Shown: one piece after another, positions 256-19,868 of the stretch
Numbering within the stretch: position 1 is the first letter of the stretch
Layout: each line of letters starts with the position of its first letter
Virus record (IMG/VR): IMGVR_UViG_3300031658_000168
Span: 1-21,299 of that record
Reading direction: 5' to 3' (one strand)
Length of the DNA stretch: 21,299 nt
From: a virus
The notes under the pieces: model-generated
Database searches by the model: none
What the model was told of the DNA's origin: nothing
What the model saw: only the letters and a program-made list of their open reading frames with translations
Translations under genes and position numbers: made by a program

Positions 256-2757
256 ATGCAAGAAGTTCAATTATACATTGAGGGAGAAAGAATAGAGTTA
301 TTTAAAGATGAAACAATTTCTTTAACCGATTCAATCAAGAACGCAAAAGATATAAGTAAAATATTTACAACTTTTAGCCAAGAATTCAATCTACCCGCTT
401 CACCTGCTACTAATAAATTATTTAAGCATTACTATAATTATGATATAGTAGATGGGTTTGACGCAAGATATAAAGCAACGGCATTAATAAAATTAAACGG
501 TGCTGATTATAAGCATGGAAAAATTAGACTTAATTCTGTAACCTTAAAAAATAATAAAGCACACTCGTATAAAGTTGTTTTCTTTGGTAATACCGTAACA
601 TTAACAGACGTATTTGGTAACGATGAATTAGATACATTAGATTTATCTGCGTATGACCATACTTATTCATCTGCGGTAGTTAAGGCAGGATTAACAACAG
701 GACTATCCACAGGAGGTACAACGAGCACTAACAGGGATGTAGTATATCCTTTCATATCTCACACAGAACAGTTTGTTGTAGATGATACACCGACAGCAGG
801 TAGTTTTCATAATTTTGGAGGTACAAATGGACTGGCGCATACAGATTTAAAACCCGCTATAAAGTTAAAGCATTTTATCACCGCAATAGAATCTAAATAT
901 CCAGAGATTGATTTCAGCGATGACTATTTTAATAGTGCTGAATTCTTAGAAATGTACATGTGGTTACACCGAGAGAAAGGAGCGGTAGTTTCTGGTAATT
1001 CTGTACAAAATTGGGTGTTAGATGAAAGCCAATGGACATTAGATTCAGGAACTAATGTGCTACCTATAACTTGGCAGGATGAAGATAATTATACTTTTCA
1101 CTGGGTTGTAACACCTGTAAATGGAGCAGGTTTTTATACTGTAAAAGTTGACGATTATAGGGGGTCTGGAAATATTTATACTTCAACAAATAATTCAGGG
1201 AGAACTGTATTCACGTTTACAATAGAAAACGAGTATAATCCAAAACCTTACTGGTTGAATTTTACAATAGAAACATCTGGGGGGTTGTCTACCTTCTCAT
1301 CAGACCTATCTATAAGTAAAGCATTTGAGGGTGTTACTGGTATTTATAGCAGTCCTTTATCTACTGAATCTACGGCGGGAAATATAGTAATATCAGAACA
1401 GGTACCTAAGATTAAAATAATAGATTTTTTATCTAACCTTTTTAAAATGTCAAATCTTACGGCATATTTAGAAAATGATATTATAATTGTTAAAACTTTA
1501 GATGATTATTATTCTACGGGTATAAATCACGATGTGACCAAATATATAGATGTCACTAATTCAGATGTTGGGAGAGCACTTCCATATAATGAAATTAGTC
1601 TAAAATATCCAACTCCAAAAACGCTTCTAATAAATAAAGCAAACGAAAAAAGTAATTTTGAATTCGGCAATTTAGACTATAAAGCGGGGGTTAATTTTGA
1701 TGGTTCAAAATATAACGTAAAGATTGATTTTGAAAGAATGATGTTTGAACGCCAATCAAACCAAGATACAAAAGTATTAACTCAATTACAATGGGGGTGG
1801 TTTGTTGATAAAGATAGTAAGCCTATAATCAGCAGACCGTTAATATTTTATAATATAAACAGACCTTGTAATACAAATAATATTAAGTGGTTTGATGACA
1901 CTTTAATCAATACAACATACAACGCGGCAAGTAACGTAATGCAAGATAATACGCATACGTTAAACTTTGGCGCAGAGACTGATGAATATACAGGTGTCTT
2001 AAATACAAATAGTCTATTTAACGAATATTACAATAATTACATTCAATCTATTTTTGATGTACGTGCAAGGATATTCAATTTTACTGCTAATTTACCGCTA
2101 TCGCTTTTATTAAAATACAATCTAAACGACAAGTTTATAATAGCACAGAAAGCGTATAAAATTAATTCTATAAATACCGATTTACAAACGGGAAAAAGTA
2201 AACTTGAATTAATCACGTCACTTGCTGAAATACCTATTTCTGCGACTACTATTACATCAGCAGTTGAAGCGGCTCAATTATATGGGGCTTCTATAATATC
2301 AGCAAATTTAACTCAATTTGATAGTGTAAATTTAAACGCATCTTTAAGAGGTGGTTCGGTAATTTATGCGGTCATTAGTAGTTTAGCCGAGCAGAAAATA
2401 GATGTTTGGGTAGTAGCATTTTCAGACGAAGATACAGCAATAACAACGGGTACAAATAAAGTGGAATTTCAAATGCCAAATTACGCAACTACTTTAGAAG
2501 GTGTTTCATGTAGTTTTAAAACAGCACCGACAACATCTGCTATAACAATAGATTTATCAGAAGGTGGCACTTCGGTATTAAGTACAAAAATAACAGTAGA
2601 TGCAACTGAAAAAACAAGTGAAACGGCTGCGACTGCTTCAGTTATTTCAGATAATAGTTTAGCAGCAAATGCTGTTATGACTTTAGACGTAGATTCAGCC
2701 GATAGTGGGGGCACTTCTTCAGGTGGTAAATTAATGATTTATTTTAGGAAAGCATGA
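256..2757 (+). CDS. Large tail structural protein (tail tip/baseplate hub-like)
   Basis: An 833-residue protein whose N-terminus (about 1-120, including FTTFSQEFNLPASPATNKLF at 37-56) and middle (KIKIIDFLSNLFKMSNLTAY) resemble large virion proteins I know from Bacteroidota phages. These usually sit near the tape-measure gene and are annotated only as structural. Residues after about 690 become rich in Ala, Thr and Ser, like a repetitive beta-structured fibre or host-contact region. There is no signal peptide or membrane segment. Its start abuts the preceding stop, and its TGA overlaps the next ATG as ATGA, so translation is coupled to the leucine-rich-repeat gene. A role in the tail tip or adsorption apparatus is likely; distal tail protein, hub and fibre cannot be separated from sequence alone. 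Confidence 0.75.
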   Translation: MQEVQLYIEGERIELFKDETISLTDSIKNAKDISKIFTTFSQEFNLPASPATNKLFKHYYNYDIVDGFDARYKATALIKLNGADYKHGKIRLNSVTLKNNKAHSYKVVFFGNTVTLTDVFGNDELDTLDLSAYDHTYSSAVVKAGLTTGLSTGGTTSTNRDVVYPFISHTEQFVVDDTPTAGSFHNFGGTNGLAHTDLKPAIKLKHFITAIESKYPEIDFSDDYFNSAEFLEMYMWLHREKGAVVSGNSVQNWVLDESQWTLDSGTNVLPITWQDEDNYTFHWVVTPVNGAGFYTVKVDDYRGSGNIYTSTNNSGRTVFTFTIENEYNPKPYWLNFTIETSGGLSTFSSDLSISKAFEGVTGIYSSPLSTESTAGNIVISEQVPKIKIIDFLSNLFKMSNLTAYLENDIIIVKTLDDYYSTGINHDVTKYIDVTNSDVGRALPYNEISLKYPTPKTLLINKANEKSNFEFGNLDYKAGVNFDGSKYNVKIDFERMMFERQSNQDTKVLTQLQWGWFVDKDSKPIISRPLIFYNINRPCNTNNIKWFDDTLINTTYNAASNVMQDNTHTLNFGAETDEYTGVLNTNSLFNEYYNNYIQSIFDVRARIFNFTANLPLSLLLKYNLNDKFIIAQKAYKINSINTDLQTGKSKLELITSLAEIPISATTITSAVEAAQLYGASIISANLTQFDSVNLNASLRGGSVIYAVISSLAEQKIDVWVVAFSDEDTAITTGTNKVEFQMPNYATTLEGVSCSFKTAPTTSAITIDLSEGGTSVLSTKITVDATEKTSETAATASVISDNSLAANAVMTLDVDSADSGGTSSGGKLMIYFRKA

Positions 2758-3641
2758 GCACTTTTATAAACTCTTTTTGGGGTGGTGTTGCAATAACTCC
2801 AGTTGGCCATATGACTATTTCTACTACTTCAAGCAGTAGCACTTGGAGTCCATTAATTGTTTCAAATACTGGTAGTACTCTAACTTGGGTTGCTACTGGT
2901 GCGGCAACTCAAACAATTATAGCAGACGACCCTATTTTTGATTTTTCATTAAATACAACAAATGATATAATTAATATAGATGTTTATTTAGTATCTTCAT
3001 TAACAACGTTAATTACAGATGGAACGGATATTACAACTATAAATTTATTTGAATGTACATCATTAGAGATATTTCAGTCACAAAATGATAATATTACAAG
3101 TCTGGATATTAGTAATAATTTATCTTTAAATACCCTTTCAATAAATTTAAACCCTTTAAATTATATAAGTGTTACTAATAATATTTTGTTAACATTCATT
3201 AATATAGGTTATGGTTCTAATATTACAGGATTAGATGTAAGTAATAATACCCTTTTAACTGGACTATTATTACATAATGGTAATAATACATTAGCAGACG
3301 GATTAGATGTAAGTAATAATACCCTTTTAACTTCATTATGGGTTAATGATTCATTAATACCATCACTTGACGTTAGTAATAATACACTTTTAAAACAATT
3401 ATATTTTCAAAATACAGCTATGACAACTATACCAACAGGTATATCTGGATTAACAAGTTTAGAAAGGATTAATTCATTCGGAAATAGTTTTAGCTCTACT
3501 GAAACAAATACTCTCTTGGCTGATTTAGTAACCTGTTCAGTTACTAATGGATTTTTATATTTCACATCTAACGAAACAGGGCAAGGAATAACAGATAGAG
3601 CGACTTTAGTAACAAGAGGGTGGTCTATAACAGAATTATAA
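2754..3641 (+). CDS. Leucine-rich-repeat tail-associated protein, possible receptor-binding protein
   Basis: A 295-residue protein. The N-terminal 100 residues are Thr/Ser/Ile-rich. Residues about 115-215 contain five repeats of the form LDVSNNTLLTxL: LDISNNLSLNTL, ISVTNNILLTFI, then three almost identical LDVSNNTLL units at about 160, 184 and 205, spaced 24 and 21 residues apart. A less regular LRR tail (IPTGISGLTSLERINSFGNS) follows. This repeat type is common in Bacteroidota surface proteins, where the concave face binds ligands. The gene is translationally coupled (ATGA) to the large tail protein and followed by another tail gene. I infer a virion adhesin or fibre-tip protein. No signal peptide is seen, which argues against a secreted host protein. 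The receptor role is not proven. Confidence 0.75.
   Translation: MSTFINSFWGGVAITPVGHMTISTTSSSSTWSPLIVSNTGSTLTWVATGAATQTIIADDPIFDFSLNTTNDIINIDVYLVSSLTTLITDGTDITTINLFECTSLEIFQSQNDNITSLDISNNLSLNTLSINLNPLNYISVTNNILLTFINIGYGSNITGLDVSNNTLLTGLLLHNGNNTLADGLDVSNNTLLTSLWVNDSLIPSLDVSNNTLLKQLYFQNTAMTTIPTGISGLTSLERINSFGNSFSSTETNTLLADLVTCSVTNGFLYFTSNETGQGITDRATLVTRGWSITEL
3228..3332 (+). repeat. Near-identical DNA repeats inside the LRR gene
   Basis: A 33-bp stretch at 3228-3260 recurs without mismatch at 3300-3332, 72 bp (24 codons) apart. A diverged third copy starts at 3366, 63 bp further on. All copies are in the same reading frame and encode the GLDVSNNTLLT repeat. Nucleotide-level identity, including synonymous positions, indicates recent duplication or gene conversion rather than ancient LRR divergence. 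Confidence 0.9.
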
Positions 3642-4249: not shown

Positions 4250-6137
4250 GATTGATTTAAAAACAGGTAAGGCTATCGACAACGTTAAGAAGTTAGACAC
4301 GTCTGTTAAAAAAGTTACCAAAAGCACAAAAGATGTTGATGTCGCAAACAAAGAACTTGGAAGCGGTTTAGATAAAATGACAGGGGGAGCAGTATCTAAA
4401 TTCAAAGGTATGCTTTCTTCTATTAAAGCTGTTACAGGAGGATTTAATATCATGAAAGTTGCAATTATAGGCACTGGTATTGGTGCTCTATTAATTGCTA
4501 TTGTTGCTTTAAAAGCTGCGTTTAGTAATTCAGAAGAAGGTCAAAATAAGTTCGCCAAAATAATGGGCGTTATAGGCTCGGTTACTGGAAACTTTGTCGA
4601 CTTATTAGCATCTTTAGGGGATAAGATTATATGGGTATTTGAAAATCCTAAGAAAGCAATAAAAGATTTTGTTAAATTATTAAAAGAAAATATAATAAAT
4701 AGATTTAATGGTCTTTTAGAATTAGTTCCCGCATTAGGTAAAGCGGTATCTCAATTATTTAAAGGCGATTTTGCGGGTGCGGCTGAAACAGCAGCCAATG
4801 CGGTTGCGAAAGTTGCTTTGGGTACTGAAAATTTAACAGGTTCTATAAAAGCAGCAGCCGATGCGCTAAAGAAATTAGGTGAAGAAGTTGCTGCTGATGC
4901 AAAAGAAGCGGCTAAAATAGCAGATAAAAGAGCTGTGGCTGATAAAATAGAGCGGGGGTTAATTGTAGAAAGAGCAAAAGCAGACAGAGATATAGCTGAA
5001 TTACGTTTCAAATCAGAGCAAAGAGAAAAATTCAACGCAACTGAAAGAATAGCATTTTTGAAAGATGCATCTAAGATTTCAGAAGATATAGCGAATAAAG
5101 AAATAGCAGCTAATAGACTAAGATTAAACGCACAAATAGCTGAGAATAAACTTTCAGGAAGCACAAAGGATGATTTAAATAAAGTAGCTGAATTAAAAGC
5201 AAAAGGAATACAATTAGATACTGCTAAATTAAATCTACAAAAAAGATTACAAACTTCACTAACTACATTTCAAAATGAAGAAATAGCAGGAGCTAAAAAA
5301 ATAACTGATGCAGCTCAAAAAGTAATAGATGATGCTAAAGTAATATCTGATAAAAAGATAGTAGATGATGCAAAAACAGAAAAAGAACGATTAGATGCTA
5401 TTGATAAAATACAAGAAGATTATAAAATAAAAAAAGAAAATGATGATGCAGAAACTGAAATACAAAAAATAGAATTAGAGCAAACAAGGTCACTTGCGGA
5501 ATTAGACAGGTTAAATGCTACCAAAGAACAAAAGGCATTAACTATTGCGTATTGGAATAATAAAATAACCGAACAGAATAAAAAAGATGGAGAAAAACAA
5601 ATAGCAGACGAAACTAAAATAGCCGAAGCAAAAATAGCATTACAGCTTCAATTAGCGGGCGCGATAGGTAATGCTTTAGGGTCTATAAGTCAATTATTTG
5701 AAAGGGGCACGGCAGCAAGTAAAGCAGCCGCACTTGCTGAAATAGTTATAGGTACTGGAATAGGTTTTATTCAAGGGTTAGATATAGCACAGAAAGGAGC
5801 AAAAGCAACAGGACCAGCAGCACCGTTTGCCTTTCCTATATTTTATGCAACACAAATTGCAGCAGTATTAGGAGCAGCAGGAAAAGCAAAGAATATTTTA
5901 ACACAAGTTAAAGGTGGCGGCGGTGGTGGTGCTAATATAGGAGGTGCGCCATCAATACCAAAACAAAAAGCACAAGCACCATCATTCAACGTTGTAGGTT
6001 CTGGCGGTACAAATCAACTCGCCAGTGCAATAGGTGACCAATCTCAAAAACCTGTTAAGACATATGTAGTAGCAAAAGAGGTAACTACACAGGCAGAGAT
6101 GGATAGAAATATAGTAAAATCGGCTTCGTTTGGTTAA
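4230..6137 (+). CDS. Tail tape measure protein
   Basis: A 635-residue protein. A charged N-terminal helix region (1-60) is followed by a hydrophobic segment at about 76-98 (MKVAIIGTGIGALLIAIVAL). A long Lys/Glu/Ala-rich coiled coil spans roughly 200-480. A second Ala/Gly-rich hydrophobic stretch covers about 485-555, then a glycine run near 562-567. The C-terminal motif (VKTYVVAKEVTTQAEMDRNI) is one I know from tape-measure proteins of Bacteroidota phages and prophages. Such proteins set tail length and are ejected with the DNA; this length implies a modest tail if the usual scaling holds. It starts inside the small upstream ORF and is followed by a bipartite regulatory element at 6140-6174. 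Unusually, head genes rather than tail-tip genes lie downstream. Confidence 0.88.
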   Translation: MKKEIIEIDLKTGKAIDNVKKLDTSVKKVTKSTKDVDVANKELGSGLDKMTGGAVSKFKGMLSSIKAVTGGFNIMKVAIIGTGIGALLIAIVALKAAFSNSEEGQNKFAKIMGVIGSVTGNFVDLLASLGDKIIWVFENPKKAIKDFVKLLKENIINRFNGLLELVPALGKAVSQLFKGDFAGAAETAANAVAKVALGTENLTGSIKAAADALKKLGEEVAADAKEAAKIADKRAVADKIERGLIVERAKADRDIAELRFKSEQREKFNATERIAFLKDASKISEDIANKEIAANRLRLNAQIAENKLSGSTKDDLNKVAELKAKGIQLDTAKLNLQKRLQTSLTTFQNEEIAGAKKITDAAQKVIDDAKVISDKKIVDDAKTEKERLDAIDKIQEDYKIKKENDDAETEIQKIELEQTRSLAELDRLNATKEQKALTIAYWNNKITEQNKKDGEKQIADETKIAEAKIALQLQLAGAIGNALGSISQLFERGTAASKAAALAEIVIGTGIGFIQGLDIAQKGAKATGPAAPFAFPIFYATQIAAVLGAAGKAKNILTQVKGGGGGGANIGGAPSIPKQKAQAPSFNVVGSGGTNQLASAIGDQSQKPVKTYVVAKEVTTQAEMDRNIVKSASFG

Positions 6138-6139
6138 AA

Positions 6140-6174
6140 TTGTTACAAAAATATAAATCAATTGTTTATTAAAA
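6140..6174 (+). promoter_or_regulatory. Bipartite element, copy 1 (before the protease gene)
   Basis: TTGTTACAAAA at 6140-6150, a 13-bp spacer, then GTTTATTAAAA at 6164-6174, ending 10 bp before the protease ATG. Copy 2 (6807-6841) has both 11-mers and the spacer length unchanged, while the spacer sequences differ. The left half contains TTGT-T-ACAA, an inverted repeat with a one-base centre. The distance between the halves is close to the -33/-7 distance of Bacteroidota promoters, although the right half is not TAnnTTTG. I infer a phage-specific promoter or an activator/repressor site. Confidence 0.65.
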
Positions 6175-6184
6175 AAATATAATC

Positions 6185-6799
6185 ATGGATAATATAGAAA
6201 CTATCGAGTTGTTTATTGACGAGGAAAACTTAAATGATGGCATACAGGCTATTTCACTTGTGGAATCTCCAGCAATAGAAGAGAATTTTATTGCTCTAAA
6301 TAAGCATAAAGTTGAATTTAAAACTATTGATAAAGAAAAGAGAATAATTATTGGTTTGGCTTTAGTTCCAGATAAACCTATTTACAGAAAGGTAAAAGAA
6401 AAAGAATTTTATATCACATTTTCGCAAGATACCGTTTACAAAGCATCTGAATTATATCTTAAAAGACTAAAAAATAACAATACTACTTTAGAACATGAAA
6501 AAGATATTAAAGGCGTTTCTGTTATTCAATCTTGGATTATTGAGGACCCTAAAATGGACAAAGCAAATCTTTATAATCTGAATGCAATAAAAGGTGCGTG
6601 GGTTGTGGTTATGAAGATAGACAATGATGCTGTTTGGAACGATGTAAAAGATGGTAAATATTTAGGTCTAAGTATAGAAGGATTTTTTAGCGATGAAAGC
6701 ATTAAACAATCTGAAATTGTAGAAGATAAAAAAGTTGAAGATTTAACAGAATTAGAAGCAAAAGAATTGTACGATACTATTTTAAAAGTGTTAGGATAA
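6185..6799 (+). CDS. Prohead (capsid maturation) protease, XkdF-like peptidase S78 type
   Basis: A 204-residue protein. It has the ordered motifs of XkdF-like prohead proteases (Pfam Peptidase_S78_2): VESPAIEENF at 26-35, GLALVPDKPIYR at 57-68, TLEHEKD with probable catalytic His104, GVSVIQSWIIED with probable catalytic Ser116, and YLGLSIEGFF at 159-168. The usual acidic residue before the serine (ESW) is Gln here (QSW). The enzyme cleaves scaffold and/or capsid termini inside the procapsid. It is directly followed by a scaffold-like gene and the capsid gene, matching that role. The ATG is 10 bp after bipartite element copy 1. The C-terminus (about 172-204) is charged and helical. Confidence 0.88.
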   Translation: MDNIETIELFIDEENLNDGIQAISLVESPAIEENFIALNKHKVEFKTIDKEKRIIIGLALVPDKPIYRKVKEKEFYITFSQDTVYKASELYLKRLKNNNTTLEHEKDIKGVSVIQSWIIEDPKMDKANLYNLNAIKGAWVVVMKIDNDAVWNDVKDGKYLGLSIEGFFSDESIKQSEIVEDKKVEDLTELEAKELYDTILKVLG

Positions 6800-6806
6800 T
6801 TTGAAT

Positions 6807-6841
6807 TTGTTACAAAATAACAAAAAGGTAGTTTATTAAAA
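6807..6841 (+). promoter_or_regulatory. Bipartite element, copy 2 (before the scaffold gene)
   Basis: TTGTTACAAAA at 6807-6817, a 13-bp spacer of different sequence, then GTTTATTAAAA at 6831-6841. Both halves match copy 1 at every base. It lies in the 69-bp gap between protease and scaffold-like genes and ends 27 bp before the ATG at 6869. If it is a promoter, it would give the scaffold and capsid genes their own start, additional to read-through from upstream. Confidence 0.65.
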
Positions 6842-6868: not shown

Positions 6869-7447
6869 ATGAATCACAAAAAAATCTTGAATGATGTGAA
6901 AACTCTTTTAGGACTTGAAGTTAAGTTAGAACAATTAAAACTTGACAACGGTACTATTGTAGAGGCAGAAGCATTTGAGGTAAATGCAGAAATTTTTATA
7001 ATTTCAGAAGAAGAAAAAGTGGCTTTGCCTATTGGCGAATATACACTTGAAGATGGTAGACAACTATCAATTCTTGAGGATGGAATTATAGCAGAAATTA
7101 AAGAGGCAGGTGAGGAAGCACCTGTTGCAGAAGAAGAGGTTGCGCCAGAGTTAGAAAAAGAATCTACTGCACCTAAGAAAATCATTGAATCAATCAGTAA
7201 AGAGATGTTCTTTGAAGAAATTAAAAAACTCAATGATAAAATTGATGGTTTACAATTATCAAAAGTCGAAGAGGTAAAAGAGGAGGTTAAAGAAATAGAA
7301 TTATCTGAAGACGTTAAGCCTATTATTCCAAGCCCAGAATCTAAAGTTGATAAAAAGATAGTGAATCTATACTCACAAAAAAAATCAAGAACAGCACAGG
7401 ATGTTGCTTTTGAAATGATAAACAAATTTAAAAACAAAAATAAATAA
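6869..7447 (+). CDS. Probable scaffolding protein
   Basis: A 192-residue, strongly charged protein. Residues 1-80 look like a small folded domain with short strands (including LDNGTIVEAEAFEV and YTLEDGRQLSI). Residues about 83-100 are a Glu/Ala/Pro-rich linker, and 105-150 form a Lys/Glu helix (KKLNDKIDGL...KVEEVKEEVKEI) likely to be a coiled coil. The end is basic (about 170-192, FEMINKFKNKNK). An acidic, coiled-coil, low-complexity protein lying between the prohead protease and the capsid gene is the classic position and make-up of a scaffold that the protease removes. The capsid ATG follows its stop after only 2 bases. The assignment is by context and composition, not by a recognised domain. 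Confidence 0.7.
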   Translation: MNHKKILNDVKTLLGLEVKLEQLKLDNGTIVEAEAFEVNAEIFIISEEEKVALPIGEYTLEDGRQLSILEDGIIAEIKEAGEEAPVAEEEVAPELEKESTAPKKIIESISKEMFFEEIKKLNDKIDGLQLSKVEEVKEEVKEIELSEDVKPIIPSPESKVDKKIVNLYSQKKSRTAQDVAFEMINKFKNKNK

Positions 7448-7449
7448 TT

Positions 7450-8382
7450 ATGGCAACATCAGTATCAATAACAAGCACTTATGCGGGAGAAGCAGCTGGA
7501 GGATATATCTCTGCTGCGCAACTTGCATCAAACACAATCCTAAACGGTGGTATTACCGTTAAACCAAACATTAAATTCAAAGAGGTACTTAGATTATTCT
7601 CTACGGATGGACTTGTTGCTAATTCAACGTGTGATTTTACAGACACAGCTACAATTACTACTACTGAAAAGATTTTACAAGTTGAGAATTTCCAAGTGAA
7701 TCTTGAATTATGTAAAACTTCTTTTAGAAGTGATTGGGATGCTATGAGTATGGGAGCGTCTGCAAATGACAATATTCCAAGTACTTTCCAAGATTATCTT
7801 TTAGGATATGTTGCTGCTAAGGTAGCGGCTAAAAATGAGGCTACAATCTGGCACGGTGCGAATGCTACTGCTGGAGAGTTTGATGGTTTAGTAGTTTTAG
7901 CTACGGCTGACGCAACAGTTGTAGATGTTGTAGGTGCAACTTCAACAGCTTCTAATGTAGTTGCTGAATTAGGAAAAGTAGTAGATGCTATTCCAGCGTC
8001 TTTATTTGGAGACCCTGAATTAAAACTATATGTTTCTCAAAATGTAGCGAGAAACTATGTACGTTCATTAGGAGGTTTTAGCGTTGCTGCTACTTCAAAC
8101 GCGGGTACAGATGGAAAAGGAACTCAATGGTATAATGGCGGAGCATTATCTTTCGATGGTGTGCCAATCTTTATCGCAAACGGATTGGAAGCAAACTACA
8201 TGTTCGCTGCTAAATCTGACAACTTATTTTACGGTGCTTCAATGTTAAGTGACGAAAATGAAGCGACTGTTTTAGATATGGCTGACAAAGATGGTTCACA
8301 AAATGTAAGAGTAATTTTACGTTATGCTGCTGGAGTTCAGATTGGAATAGGTGCTGAGTGTGTTTTGTACACACCTGTTTAA
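7450..8382 (+). CDS. Major capsid protein
   Basis: A 310-residue protein. The N-terminus (residues 1-60) is Ala/Ser/Thr-rich, followed by a region with TTTEKILQVENFQVNLELCK and a helix-rich middle (FQDYLLGYVAAKVAAKNEATIWHGA). The C-terminal half is beta-rich (KLYVSQNVARNYVRSLGG, FDGVPIFIANGL, VRVILRYAAGVQIGIGAECV). This pattern matches capsid proteins I know from Bacteroidota phages and is consistent with the HK97 fold, where a long helix is followed by a beta P-domain. It follows protease and scaffold with only 2 bases between scaffold stop and this ATG. A strong terminator lies 18 bases after the stop, as expected for the most highly expressed virion gene. Confidence 0.85.
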   Translation: MATSVSITSTYAGEAAGGYISAAQLASNTILNGGITVKPNIKFKEVLRLFSTDGLVANSTCDFTDTATITTTEKILQVENFQVNLELCKTSFRSDWDAMSMGASANDNIPSTFQDYLLGYVAAKVAAKNEATIWHGANATAGEFDGLVVLATADATVVDVVGATSTASNVVAELGKVVDAIPASLFGDPELKLYVSQNVARNYVRSLGGFSVAATSNAGTDGKGTQWYNGGALSFDGVPIFIANGLEANYMFAAKSDNLFYGASMLSDENEATVLDMADKDGSQNVRVILRYAAGVQIGIGAECVLYTPV

Positions 8383-8399
8383 TAGAATCAATTAATCAT

Positions 8400-8430
8400 A
8401 AGGCTTTAGATTGATTTTTAAAGCCTTTTT
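8400..8430 (+). terminator. Intrinsic terminator after the capsid gene
   Basis: A perfect 9-bp stem, AAGGCTTTA at 8400-8408 with TAAAGCCTT at 8419-8427, a 10-base loop and a short T tail to 8430. It lies 18 bases after the capsid stop and only 15 bases before the next ATG, leaving no room for a promoter in between. It probably acts as a partial terminator that lowers expression of the gene downstream. Confidence 0.85.
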
Positions 8431-8445
8431 AAAACAAAAAAAAAT

Positions 8446-8976: not shown

Positions 8977-9001
8977 TAGTTGAATTTTTAGTATTTATAG
9001 T

Positions 9002-9030
9002 AACCCTTATTATTAATTTGATAAGGGTTT
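9002..9030 (+). terminator. Intrinsic terminator after the tail tube candidate
   Basis: A perfect 9-bp stem, AACCCTTAT at 9002-9010 with ATAAGGGTT at 9021-9029, a 10-base loop, then a T-rich stretch (tttattattta). It lies 25 bases after the stop of the preceding gene and ahead of a promoter-like region, so it closes that transcription unit. Confidence 0.8.
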
Positions 9031-9073
9031 ATTATTTAGTACAGATATATTACTGCGAATAATCTATAACTAT

Positions 9074-9110
9074 TTATAACAAAAAACTATATTTGTTGTT
9101 TATAGTAAAA
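9074..9110 (+). promoter_or_regulatory. Promoter region: degenerate bipartite element copy 3 with an embedded TAnnTTTG box
   Basis: TTATAACAAAA at 9074-9084 (compare TTGTTACAAAA), a 13-bp spacer, then GTTTATAGTAAAA at 9098-9110 (compare GTTTATTAAAA with two bases inserted), ending 7 bp before the ATG at 9118. The spacer contains TATATTTG at 9088-9095, a full match to the Bacteroidota -7 box TAnnTTTG. No clear -33 TTG is seen at the expected distance. A promoter here is likely because a terminator lies just upstream. Confidence 0.6.
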
Positions 9111-9117
9111 GAATTAT

Positions 9118-9444
9118 ATGATAATTTTGAAACCAGTGTCAACTTCTCAAATAATAAAATTTATAGGCAGGGGCGAAGCGTGTACTAAATTAATATTAAG
9201 AGATGAACAAGATAATACAGAAACTACTATTGTAACTGATTTTAGTGTATCCTCTTATTACTTAGCGGCTTCTTTAGTATTTGACTTAAAGGAGGGGCGT
9301 ACGTACAACTTAACGGCTTATAATAACACAGATATAGTCTATAAAGATAAAATATTATGCACGTCGCAAACTGAAAGCGATTATAGTATAAATGATGGTG
9401 AATACATAGAGCATTCAACTAATAACGATTACATAACACTATAA
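9118..9444 (+). CDS. Small conserved phage protein of unknown function, upstream of the portal gene
   Basis: A 108-residue protein, predicted mostly beta, with alternating polar and hydrophobic strands (CTKLILRDEQDNTETTIVTD, YYLAASLVFDLKEGRTYNLT) and a C-terminal segment containing DKILCTSQTESDYSINDGEY. The layout resembles a small immunoglobulin-like or jelly-roll domain. Similar short proteins with a KDKILCT-like segment occur near portal genes of Bacteroidota phages. There is no signal peptide or membrane segment. It is the first gene after the promoter region at 9074-9110 and ends one base before the portal ATG, so it is co-expressed with the portal. A virion accessory role (decoration or head-tail joining) is plausible but unproven. 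Confidence 0.65.
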   Translation: MIILKPVSTSQIIKFIGRGEACTKLILRDEQDNTETTIVTDFSVSSYYLAASLVFDLKEGRTYNLTAYNNTDIVYKDKILCTSQTESDYSINDGEYIEHSTNNDYITL

Positions 9445-18594: not shown

Positions 18595-19044
18595 ATGAAA
18601 CCATTCCAAATAATAGAAGACCAAAAGAAAGTAATTGAGCAATTAAAATATAAATTACAATTCTCTAAAGATAAAGTAAAAGATGCTAAAACTATAAACA
18701 CTTTGATAAATACGGTTAATGGTTTTGATTCGATGCTAAAAGAAAAGTATTTTACAGATACCATAGAAACTTTTTTATACTCAATAATCAAAGAATGGTT
18801 TATGATGCGCAAGGTGTACGATGGCTCTCCAATTCCTTTAGTAGAAGTGTGTAAAGATATAGACTTTGATATTTTAAACGGTTCTAAACAGAAGAAACTA
18901 GAAGTATTAAGCATCTTGAAAATGCACGAGTTAGCGCATAAAGTAGAAAATAAAACCGTATTCGATAAAAATTATACTAACTTTGACAAACTACTAACAG
19001 ACCTTATAAACGAATTTAAAGTACAAATCTTATGGAACAAATAA
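18595..19044 (+). CDS. Helical protein upstream of the ATPase, unknown
   Basis: A 149-residue protein, MKPFQIIEDQKKVIEQLKYK, then KDKVKDAKTINTLINTVNGF, FLYSIIKEWFMMRKVYDGSP and IDFDILNGSKQKKLEVLSIL. Residues 1-35 look like a coiled coil, and the rest is helical with few strands. It overlaps the RecA-like ATPase gene by 13 bases, which suggests that the two act together, perhaps as a loader or regulatory partner. No domain recognised. The leader carries AAAATATTTTAATAT, a 15-bp sequence also present at the end of the methyltransferase gene (18543-18557 and 18582-18596). Confidence 0.7.
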   Translation: MKPFQIIEDQKKVIEQLKYKLQFSKDKVKDAKTINTLINTVNGFDSMLKEKYFTDTIETFLYSIIKEWFMMRKVYDGSPIPLVEVCKDIDFDILNGSKQKKLEVLSILKMHELAHKVENKTVFDKNYTNFDKLLTDLINEFKVQILWNK

Positions 19045-19868
19045 ACCTTGACGATATAGAAAACCTATCTTCTGGAATAGATTTTAATAAAATGAAACAG
19101 GAGGCTTTTGTAGATGTAAATCAAAAGTTATCACACCCGCCAGTTGCCTTGAGTATTGGCTCACACGAATACAAAGGCGAATCAATACCAAACGCTTACG
19201 GTACTTTTGGAAACTTTAGTTGCATAGTTGGAGCATCAAAGGCGCGTAAATCCTTTTTTAAATCGCTTATAATGGCAGCATACATTGGAGGTAAAACAAA
19301 TACATTTGCACCAGACTTTAAAAGTCATAGAGTTGATTCAAGTTTTGTTTTAGATTTTGATACCGAGCAAAGCGCATACCATTCTCAAAGAGTATTTAAA
19401 AGAGTTTGTGATTTGGTTGGATGTAACGCTGCTTTTTACAAACCATTCTCTTTGCGAAAATACACGTTTAGAGAGCGTTTAGAATTTATTGAATGGTGTA
19501 TGTTAGAAAGTGACTTTAAGTCCAACATAGGGCTTGTGAGTATCGATGGCTTCGCTGATTTAGTTGCAGATGTAAACGATTTAACGCAATGTAATGAATT
19601 AGTACAGAAATTATTATCATGGACTGATATTTCCCAATGCCATTTAACGGGAATATTGCACACAAATTTTGGAAGTAATAAAGCGACAGGACATTTAGGG
19701 TCAGCAGTAATGAAAAAAGCGGAAACGGTTTGTGTTTTGGAATATGGACAAGATGCTACAACGGTAAAATTCTCTTACACAAGAGGTTTTCCGATAGATG
19801 GCTTTGATTTTACAATAGGTAGCGATGGGTTGCCAAGAACAAAAGAATTAACTCAATCTTTATATTAG
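19032..19868 (+). CDS. RecA-like AAA ATPase (RepA helicase/Sak4-like)
   Basis: A 278-residue protein. The Walker A region is FSCIVGASKARKSFF (62-76): GASKARKS has Arg72 where most P-loops have Gly, as in related Bacteroidota phage and plasmid ATPases with a GKAKSRKT-type loop. A strand SSFVLDFDTEQS (103-114) follows. Walker B is IGLVSIDGFADL (166-177, Asp172). The sensor-like strand is LTGILHTNFGSNK (205-217), then ATGHLGSAVMKKAETVCVLE. The fold is RecA/RadA-like, as in hexameric RepA helicases and Sak4 recombinases. It probably drives phage DNA unwinding or strand annealing with the replication organiser upstream. The last codons lie in a 31-bp sequence repeated at 21231-21261. Confidence 0.82.
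   Translation: MEQINLDDIENLSSGIDFNKMKQEAFVDVNQKLSHPPVALSIGSHEYKGESIPNAYGTFGNFSCIVGASKARKSFFKSLIMAAYIGGKTNTFAPDFKSHRVDSSFVLDFDTEQSAYHSQRVFKRVCDLVGCNAAFYKPFSLRKYTFRERLEFIEWCMLESDFKSNIGLVSIDGFADLVADVNDLTQCNELVQKLLSWTDISQCHLTGILHTNFGSNKATGHLGSAVMKKAETVCVLEYGQDATTVKFSYTRGFPIDGFDFTIGSDGLPRTKELTQSLY
19837..19867 (+). repeat. Direct repeat, left copy (31 bp)
   Basis: This sequence matches 21231-21261 at 29 of 31 positions. It contains CAATCTTTATATTA exactly. Here it covers the last codons of the ATPase gene; at the right copy it spans the stop of the YopX gene in another frame. A shared protein sequence therefore does not explain the match. Confidence 0.8.

Follow-up and report, generated by a model that had tools for sequence, protein, structure and literature searches.

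Putative late promoters of a phage lineage of Bacteroidota, probably read by a small phage-encoded sigma factor

Three bipartite sites upstream of head genes in a siphovirus-like phage of Bacteroidota are likely late promoters, at which the host core polymerase would be directed by a phage-encoded ECF-like sigma factor. The exact sequence of the sites is private to this phage and only their architecture is shared with its relatives; in these viruses of marine and freshwater Bacteroidota the probable reader of such sites is a small sigma factor of the phages' own. The window, i.e., the whole stretch of DNA analysed, is a viral contig of 21.3 kb, whose map on the + strand starts with tail genes and ends with an AAA ATPase gene. 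By the capsid protein, its nearest cultured relatives are the Nonlabens phages P12024S and P12024L (39% identity), and more than 560 relatives of the capsid gene are present in the viral collection. The tail genes are followed by the genes for the tape measure (4230), protease (6185), scaffold (6869) and capsid (7450), by ORF 8446, and then by the connector (9118), portal (9446) and M15 endolysin (12273) genes, the replication genes and the AAA ATPase gene (19032). The genes that matter here are the following:

6185-6799, + strand: prohead protease gene (Peptidase_S78_2 / XkdF-like), first gene behind putative promoter 1 (PF14550, E 2e-14; phrog_24921, phrog_3017)
6869-7447, + strand: probable scaffold gene, behind putative promoter 2 (the phrog_24921 profile covers protease and scaffold proteins; P12024S gp01)
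7450-8382, + strand: major capsid protein gene, 2 nt after the scaffold gene and without a promoter site of its own (phrog_11320 / phrog_1623; relatives)
9118-9444, + strand: small protein gene upstream of the portal gene, named connector by position only, behind putative promoter 3 (homologues in relatives)
19032-19868, + strand: AAA ATPase gene, the landmark ahead of the sigma gene in relatives (synteny; homologues 85-86% identical in G033/G034)

The phage is a mosaic, its head genes being nearest to those of L004-L007 and its replication genes nearest to those of G033/G034; despite the latter proximity, the G034 capsid is only 40% identical to that of the window. Amid the tail genes, an ORF at 2754-3641 encodes repeated LDVSNNTLLT units resembling leucine-rich repeats and has a homologue in G033.

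Bipartite sites in the window and in related phages

The element TTGTTACAAAA-N13-GTTTATTAAAA is found letter for letter at 6140-6174 and again at 6807-6841 on the + strand, with 13-nt spacers that are equal in length and differ in sequence, as the sequence-only reading of this DNA had described. Its placement of both copies shortly before an ATG was also borne out: 10 nt separate the end of copy 1 from the protease ATG (6185) and 27 nt the end of copy 2 from the scaffold ATG (6869). A degenerate third copy, TTATAACAAAA-N13-GTTTATAGTAA, had been overlooked; it is located at 9074-9108 with the same spacing, 9 nt ahead of the connector ORF (9118). The individual elements are:

6140-6150, + strand: left (-35-like) element of putative late promoter 1, TTGTTACAAAA, exact; aligns with WWAACAAA upstream of the protease genes of relatives
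6164-6174, + strand: right (-10-like) element of putative late promoter 1, GTTTATTAAAA, exact; the clade-specific right element
6807-6817, + strand: left element of putative late promoter 2, TTGTTACAAAA, exact match
6831-6841, + strand: right element of putative late promoter 2, GTTTATTAAAA, exact match
9074-9084, + strand: left element of putative late promoter 3, TTATAACAAAA, 2 mismatches against copies 1 and 2; same position in 34/34 upstream sequences of connector homologues
9098-9108, + strand: right element of putative late promoter 3, GTTTATAGTAA, 3 mismatches; same spacing as copies 1 and 2

With up to 3 mismatches allowed, the pattern has 2 matches in the window against 0.03 expected from dinucleotide shuffles, and 0/100 shuffles held 2 matches. 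Taken alone and with up to 2 mismatches allowed, the left 11-mer is not enriched in the window (31 observed, 32.5 expected), and the signal is therefore the pair at its fixed spacing. Scored by matrix over the + strand of the window, the three sites reach at least 20.8 bits and no other site exceeds 8.3 bits. The third site (9070-9117) can be folded as a hairpin (z -2.4), which copies 1 and 2 on the + strand cannot, and its spacer contains the host-type TATATTTG, which is absent from copies 1 and 2 on that strand.

In all viral contigs of the collection no second occurrence of the exact string was found, and a looser pattern gave 15 matches, nine of which are one coding-like sequence repeated and the rest mutually unrelated. 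The scan of related phages that the sequence-only reading had proposed would thus have failed with its fixed consensus, since the string is unique to the window phage; the idea of a recurring element held for the architecture, which is widely common. Phages with the capsid gene of the window share a left element WWAACAAA, a gap of 12-13 nt and a right element that is specific to the clade, among them GTTTATTA, CGTTATCA, AGTTATCA, CGTTAATA, AGTTATAA and TAATTAATA. The close capsid relatives L005, L006 and L007 carry wTATAACAAAw-N12/13-GTTTAwTAA at the same gene positions, in L007 as ATATAACAAAA-N12-GTTTAATAATT upstream of both protease and scaffold and as TTTTAACAAAA-N13-GTTTATTATTA upstream of the connector. 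Further out, the left half departs little from WWAACAAA, and the right half varies by clade: it is CGTTATCAAA in clade B (G013, G020, G022), AGTTATCAT in clade C (G003), TAATTAATA or similar in clade D (G005, G008, G014, G029), CGTTAATA in clade E (P12024S) and AGTTATAATA in clade G (G034). Clade D is AT-rich, and its right element is less distinctive, amounting to little beyond an A/T-rich string. The late promoters of G001 are nearest to those of the window; the sites of G034, wTGTAACAAA-N13-AGTTATAATA, have a G in common with the window's TTGTTACAAA.

In distinct upstream sequences, the left element is present at the expected distance ahead of 36/40 protease, 34/34 connector and 22/39 scaffold genes. 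The same count in control genes, whose upstream sequences are of similar composition, gave 3/44 for the homologue of ORF 8446, 10/41 for the capsid gene and 10/42 for the portal gene. Matrices trained for each clade on the protease, scaffold and connector sites only were scanned over 14 genomes, a site being taken as recovered if a gene on its strand began at most 30 nt downstream; they recovered 26 further sites, 24 of which fall in the late arc, defined as reaching from the sigma gene to the end of the head genes. About 4 of the 26 are unlabelled equivalents of the scaffold or connector sites, which leaves about 22 independent ones, and column-shuffled matrices (100 trials) gave a mean of 1.35 sites and a maximum of 5. 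In P12024S, a matrix built from only two sites brings up five others that it had not been trained on, each ending 0-1 nt from an annotated start (gp35, gp41, gp44, gp45 and gp01). Some late genes have no recognisable site. The distance from site to ATG varies from 0 to 28 nt while the spacing between the halves is nearly fixed, and this speaks for a promoter rather than a translation signal. In clades B, C and E the right half often runs directly up to the ATG; promoters in these positions would result in leaderless late messages, a class that makes up 5.5% of messages in F. psychrophilum (PMC9723704).

Sigma factors of the ECF type are marked by promoters with AAC at -35 and CGT at -10 and by proteins that consist of sigma2 and sigma4 only (PMC8103513); in flavobacteria, an ECF promoter motif (SM6) has a CGT box and the primary sigma factor uses TAnnTTTG (PMC9723704). 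The layout of our sites, AAC-N15/16-nGTT, fits ECF promoters. AACA in the left half is conserved across clades, with TAC in place of AAC at two of the three window sites and AAC at the third. The right element contains CGTT in G001, G013, G020, G022, G032 and P12024S and AGTT in G003 and G034, reads TGTT/AGTT/TGTT in the window and TAATTA in clade D; nGTTTA with C preceding GTT is seen in the relatives only. Clades A, B, C and G have 15-16 nt between AAC and CGT, and P12024S (clade E) has about 17 nt.

A divergent, minus-strand site resembling the late promoters, in the gap before a late gene of 240 aa, lies at the head of some 250 nt of conserved sequence. This stretch has no conserved ORF and no Rfam match above the gathering score, its consensus fold holds 8 pairs with changes on both sides, and it is a candidate late non-coding RNA:

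L122 14530-14790, - strand: candidate late non-coding RNA stretch
L127 2260-2522, - strand: candidate late non-coding RNA stretch
L117 near 4419-4748, - strand: candidate stretch in a similar place

A sigma-like protein and the late programme proposed

Profile searches gave a weak match to Sigma70 region 2 in nearly every long contig of a relative. Three of the weak matches (G007, G009, G010) contain internal stops; they come from a different reading frame of a head gene and were set aside. A sigma-like ORF is present in every relative whose contig covers the locus, and these ORFs form one family of more than 560 members in the viral collection, with 150-190 aa, a common AEDIVQExY motif and a C-terminal helix-turn-helix. 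P12024S gp33 scores above the Pfam cut-off for Sigma-70 region 2 (25.2 against 24 bits); most other members stay below the curated cut-off, Sigma70_r4_2 is matched only weakly, and a sigma-4-like UPF0122 helix-turn-helix model is matched by 41/55 members. SigL, SigW and SigE are among the weak top matches of a profile search against the PDB.

AlphaFold (AF2) models were made for two divergent members: the G001 protein, which shares about 33% identity with the main group, and the G034 protein, which shares about 20%. Both consist of two helical domains joined by a disordered linker of about 11-20 residues at low confidence. In either case the top Foldseek matches were ECF sigma factors (probability close to 1.0, E-value 0.002-0.005). 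The modelled region 4 superposes on 2h27 (sigmaE region 4 with -35 DNA) at 2.3 A over 69 residues, the modelled region 2 on the ECF region 2 of 6tyg at 1.8 A over 67 residues and of 5uxx at 3.8 A over 82; the large rmsd over the full length results from a differing orientation of the domains. The predicted make-up is thus sigma region 2 and region 4 with a short linker, lacking sigma1.1 and sigma3.

Gene order is constant in the relatives: the AAA ATPase gene is followed 1.2-3.6 kb on by the sigma gene and then by terminase, tail, tape, protease, scaffold, capsid, connector, portal, lysis and replication genes, after which the order comes round again. The sigma gene is present in G001 and in G033/G034, and both lineages to which the window is nearest, one by its head genes and one by its replication genes, carry it. 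In the window itself it is absent; as the window ends 1.4 kb past the AAA gene, before the sigma locus, the phage's own sigma gene is expected just outside, and its factor is deduced from those of the relatives. Soon after the sigma gene, G001, G033 and G034 encode a small conserved protein that carries two motifs, GLGDTIEK close to the start and CGC, for which roles as sigma partner or anti-sigma factor are candidates only:

L139 949-1314, - strand: small GLGDTIEK protein
L141 2341-2802, + strand: small GLGDTIEK protein
L140 983-1363, - strand: small GLGDTIEK protein

What the comparison shows directly is the bipartite sites with their fixed spacing, orientation and position ahead of late genes, their conservation with right halves that differ by clade, and a conserved sigma-like protein predicted to fold into regions 2 and 4. 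From this we infer that the sigma factor reads the sites, as well as the start points and the timing given below and the presence of a sigma gene beyond the end of the window. The sigma gene, lying between the replication genes and terminase, would be expressed early or in mid infection. Its product, an ECF-like factor of about 150-190 residues, would bind host core RNA polymerase and recognise the left half as -35 and the right half as -10 element. The holoenzyme would then initiate transcripts with short leaders, or none, right upstream of separate late units: the protease; scaffold and capsid; connector and portal; and the terminase and tail genes. The sequence-only reading had suggested a late promoter read by a phage-encoded factor, and the comparison favours this, as conserved sites precede late genes and an ECF-like sigma gene is itself conserved.

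In the window, protease and scaffold are encoded by separate genes that share a frame, 228 codons lying between their starts, and promoter copy 2 occupies the break between them; in P12024S (gp01, 349 aa), and apparently also in G034, they are fused into one gene behind one promoter. The split with an added promoter may lead to scaffold and capsid being made in excess of protease. Two hairpins lie further downstream:

8400-8427, + strand: terminator-like hairpin after the capsid gene (RNA fold z = -3.7)
9002-9029, + strand: terminator-like hairpin upstream of putative promoter 3 (terminator scan; RNA fold z = -5.8 for 8985-9045)

Terminator hairpins may divide some of the late units, and behind one of them a promoter copy would restart transcription. 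ORF 8446 is flanked by two strong terminator-like hairpins (8383-8445 and 8985-9045) and has no late-promoter site. By eye, T-tailed hairpin-like sequences are also seen ahead of the connector gene in many relatives.

Other readings of the sites

It is improbable that the sites bind a phage-encoded activator other than a sigma factor, which would recruit the host sigmaA holoenzyme to weak late promoters. A bipartite site of fixed spacing would suit a DNA-binding dimer as well, or an activator next to a degraded -7 box, and of the two halves the left one is the better conserved. Against this, a TAnnTTTG element is found at no fixed position relative to the sites, the two halves differ in sequence at -35/-10 spacing and are neither inverted nor direct repeats, the distance to the ATG varies (0-28 nt) and that between the halves is constant, and a sigma-like gene is conserved in these phages, while the comparisons made here brought up no other conserved regulator.

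That the sites are ordinary host promoters, or promoter-like AT-rich DNA, read by a host primary or ECF sigma factor appears very unlikely. The host group does have ECF sigma factors with CGT -10 boxes (PMC9723704), and the 9074 site carries TATATTTG in its spacer, the one + strand copy of the sigmaA -7 box TAnnTTTG in the three window sites. The box has no constant place in them, in agreement with the sequence-only reading that the right half is not the host element, and TTG-N19-TAnnTTTG is not fitted by the sites. Moreover, the right half differs between phage clades, whereas the -7 box of the bacterial primary sigma factor is constant across the phylum, and with 24/26 recovered sites in the late arc the element occurs almost only upstream of late genes. 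A host promoter on the opposite strand was considered as well, since the CAAA of the left half gives TTTG in reverse and TAnnTTTG can be read backwards in some sites; it was rejected as the TA is not at a constant place, so that the reversed box is probably a chance product of AT-rich sequence. A clean division into host-type promoters early and phage promoters late was not borne out either: counted within 60 nt, host-type -7 boxes show no clear split between early (13/116) and late (13/152), and the one suggestive feature is boxes of promoter-like sequence close to the G034 and G027 sigma genes.

An RNA-level element for translation initiation or in the mRNA leader of highly expressed genes would suit sites near start codons in Bacteroidota, which lack Shine-Dalgarno sequences (PMC6847099), and is nevertheless exceedingly unlikely, given the ATG distance of 0-28 nt at fixed internal spacing, leaders 1 and 2 whose folding does not exceed that of shuffled sequence (z +0.6 and +0.3), right halves that often abut the ATG in clades B, C and E, a capsid gene, presumably that of the most abundant product, without a site of its own, and divergent site copies without a gene start. 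A search of the window against Rfam gave no match.

Meaning and comparison with known systems

Late-gene activation in phages of Bacteroidota is little studied. With phage-encoded sigma factors as late promoter readers, the most probable reading of the sites offers a specific scheme, open to experiment, for phages that are very common in the environment, and it lets early and late genes be called from sequence. It also supplies candidate promoter/sigma pairs of differing specificity that may be usable in Bacteroidota. Tentatively, and with somewhat more doubt than confidence, we propose a wider picture, in which a large lineage of Bacteroidota phages has its own ECF-type sigma factor for the late genes, keeps AACA fixed at -35 and lets the -10 element drift by clade, with leaderless late messages in several clades and a divergent promoter copy driving a structured late non-coding RNA; if true, nature would here provide a series of sigma/promoter pairs that are distinct from one another. 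In the open-access literature, no description of a phage-encoded sigma factor or late promoter was found for flavobacterial phages, nor one of the sites of P12024S/P12024L. What seems to be new is the family-wide use in Bacteroidota phages, the clade-wise change of the right half and the promoters that abut the start codon.

Phage sigma factors that replace the host sigma factor at middle or late promoters include T4 gp55 and SPO1 gp28 and gp33-34; T4 late promoters have a -10 element only, and SPO1 promoters differ in sequence. The sequence-only reading had thought the mechanism possibly undescribed, which does not hold for its class: phage-encoded sigma factors are established for the late structural genes of phiEco32 and deduced for those of 7-11 (PMC4331800), which makes the mechanism one of a known kind, and AAC/CGT is the ECF hallmark (PMC8103513). 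As in phiEco32/7-11, a few well-conserved short promoter copies precede structural genes and a phage sigma factor would redirect host core polymerase. Unlike there, the genomes are of about 35 kb, the phages infect Bacteroidota and the right half depends on the clade; the 7-11 motif is based on TGATGT, with an extra TATA part in its late form, in contrast to AAC-N15/16-nGTT here. Bacterial ECF (group 4) sigma factors resemble the phage proteins in promoter layout, in sigma2 and sigma4 joined by a short linker and in predicted fold. The latter differ in being phage-borne, in their very divergent sequence, in a gene located between replication and packaging genes, and in a right half that departs from CGT in several clades (PMC8103513; PMC9723704). 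Closest are the Nonlabens phages P12024S/P12024L (Inhavirus), with the same gene order, the Sigma-70 region 2 protein gp33 and, in P12024S, eight sites with the consensus TAAAACAAA-N13/14-CGTTAATA directly ahead of late genes; P12024S differs from the window in its capsid (39% identical), in its right half CGTTAATA and in the fusion of protease and scaffold.
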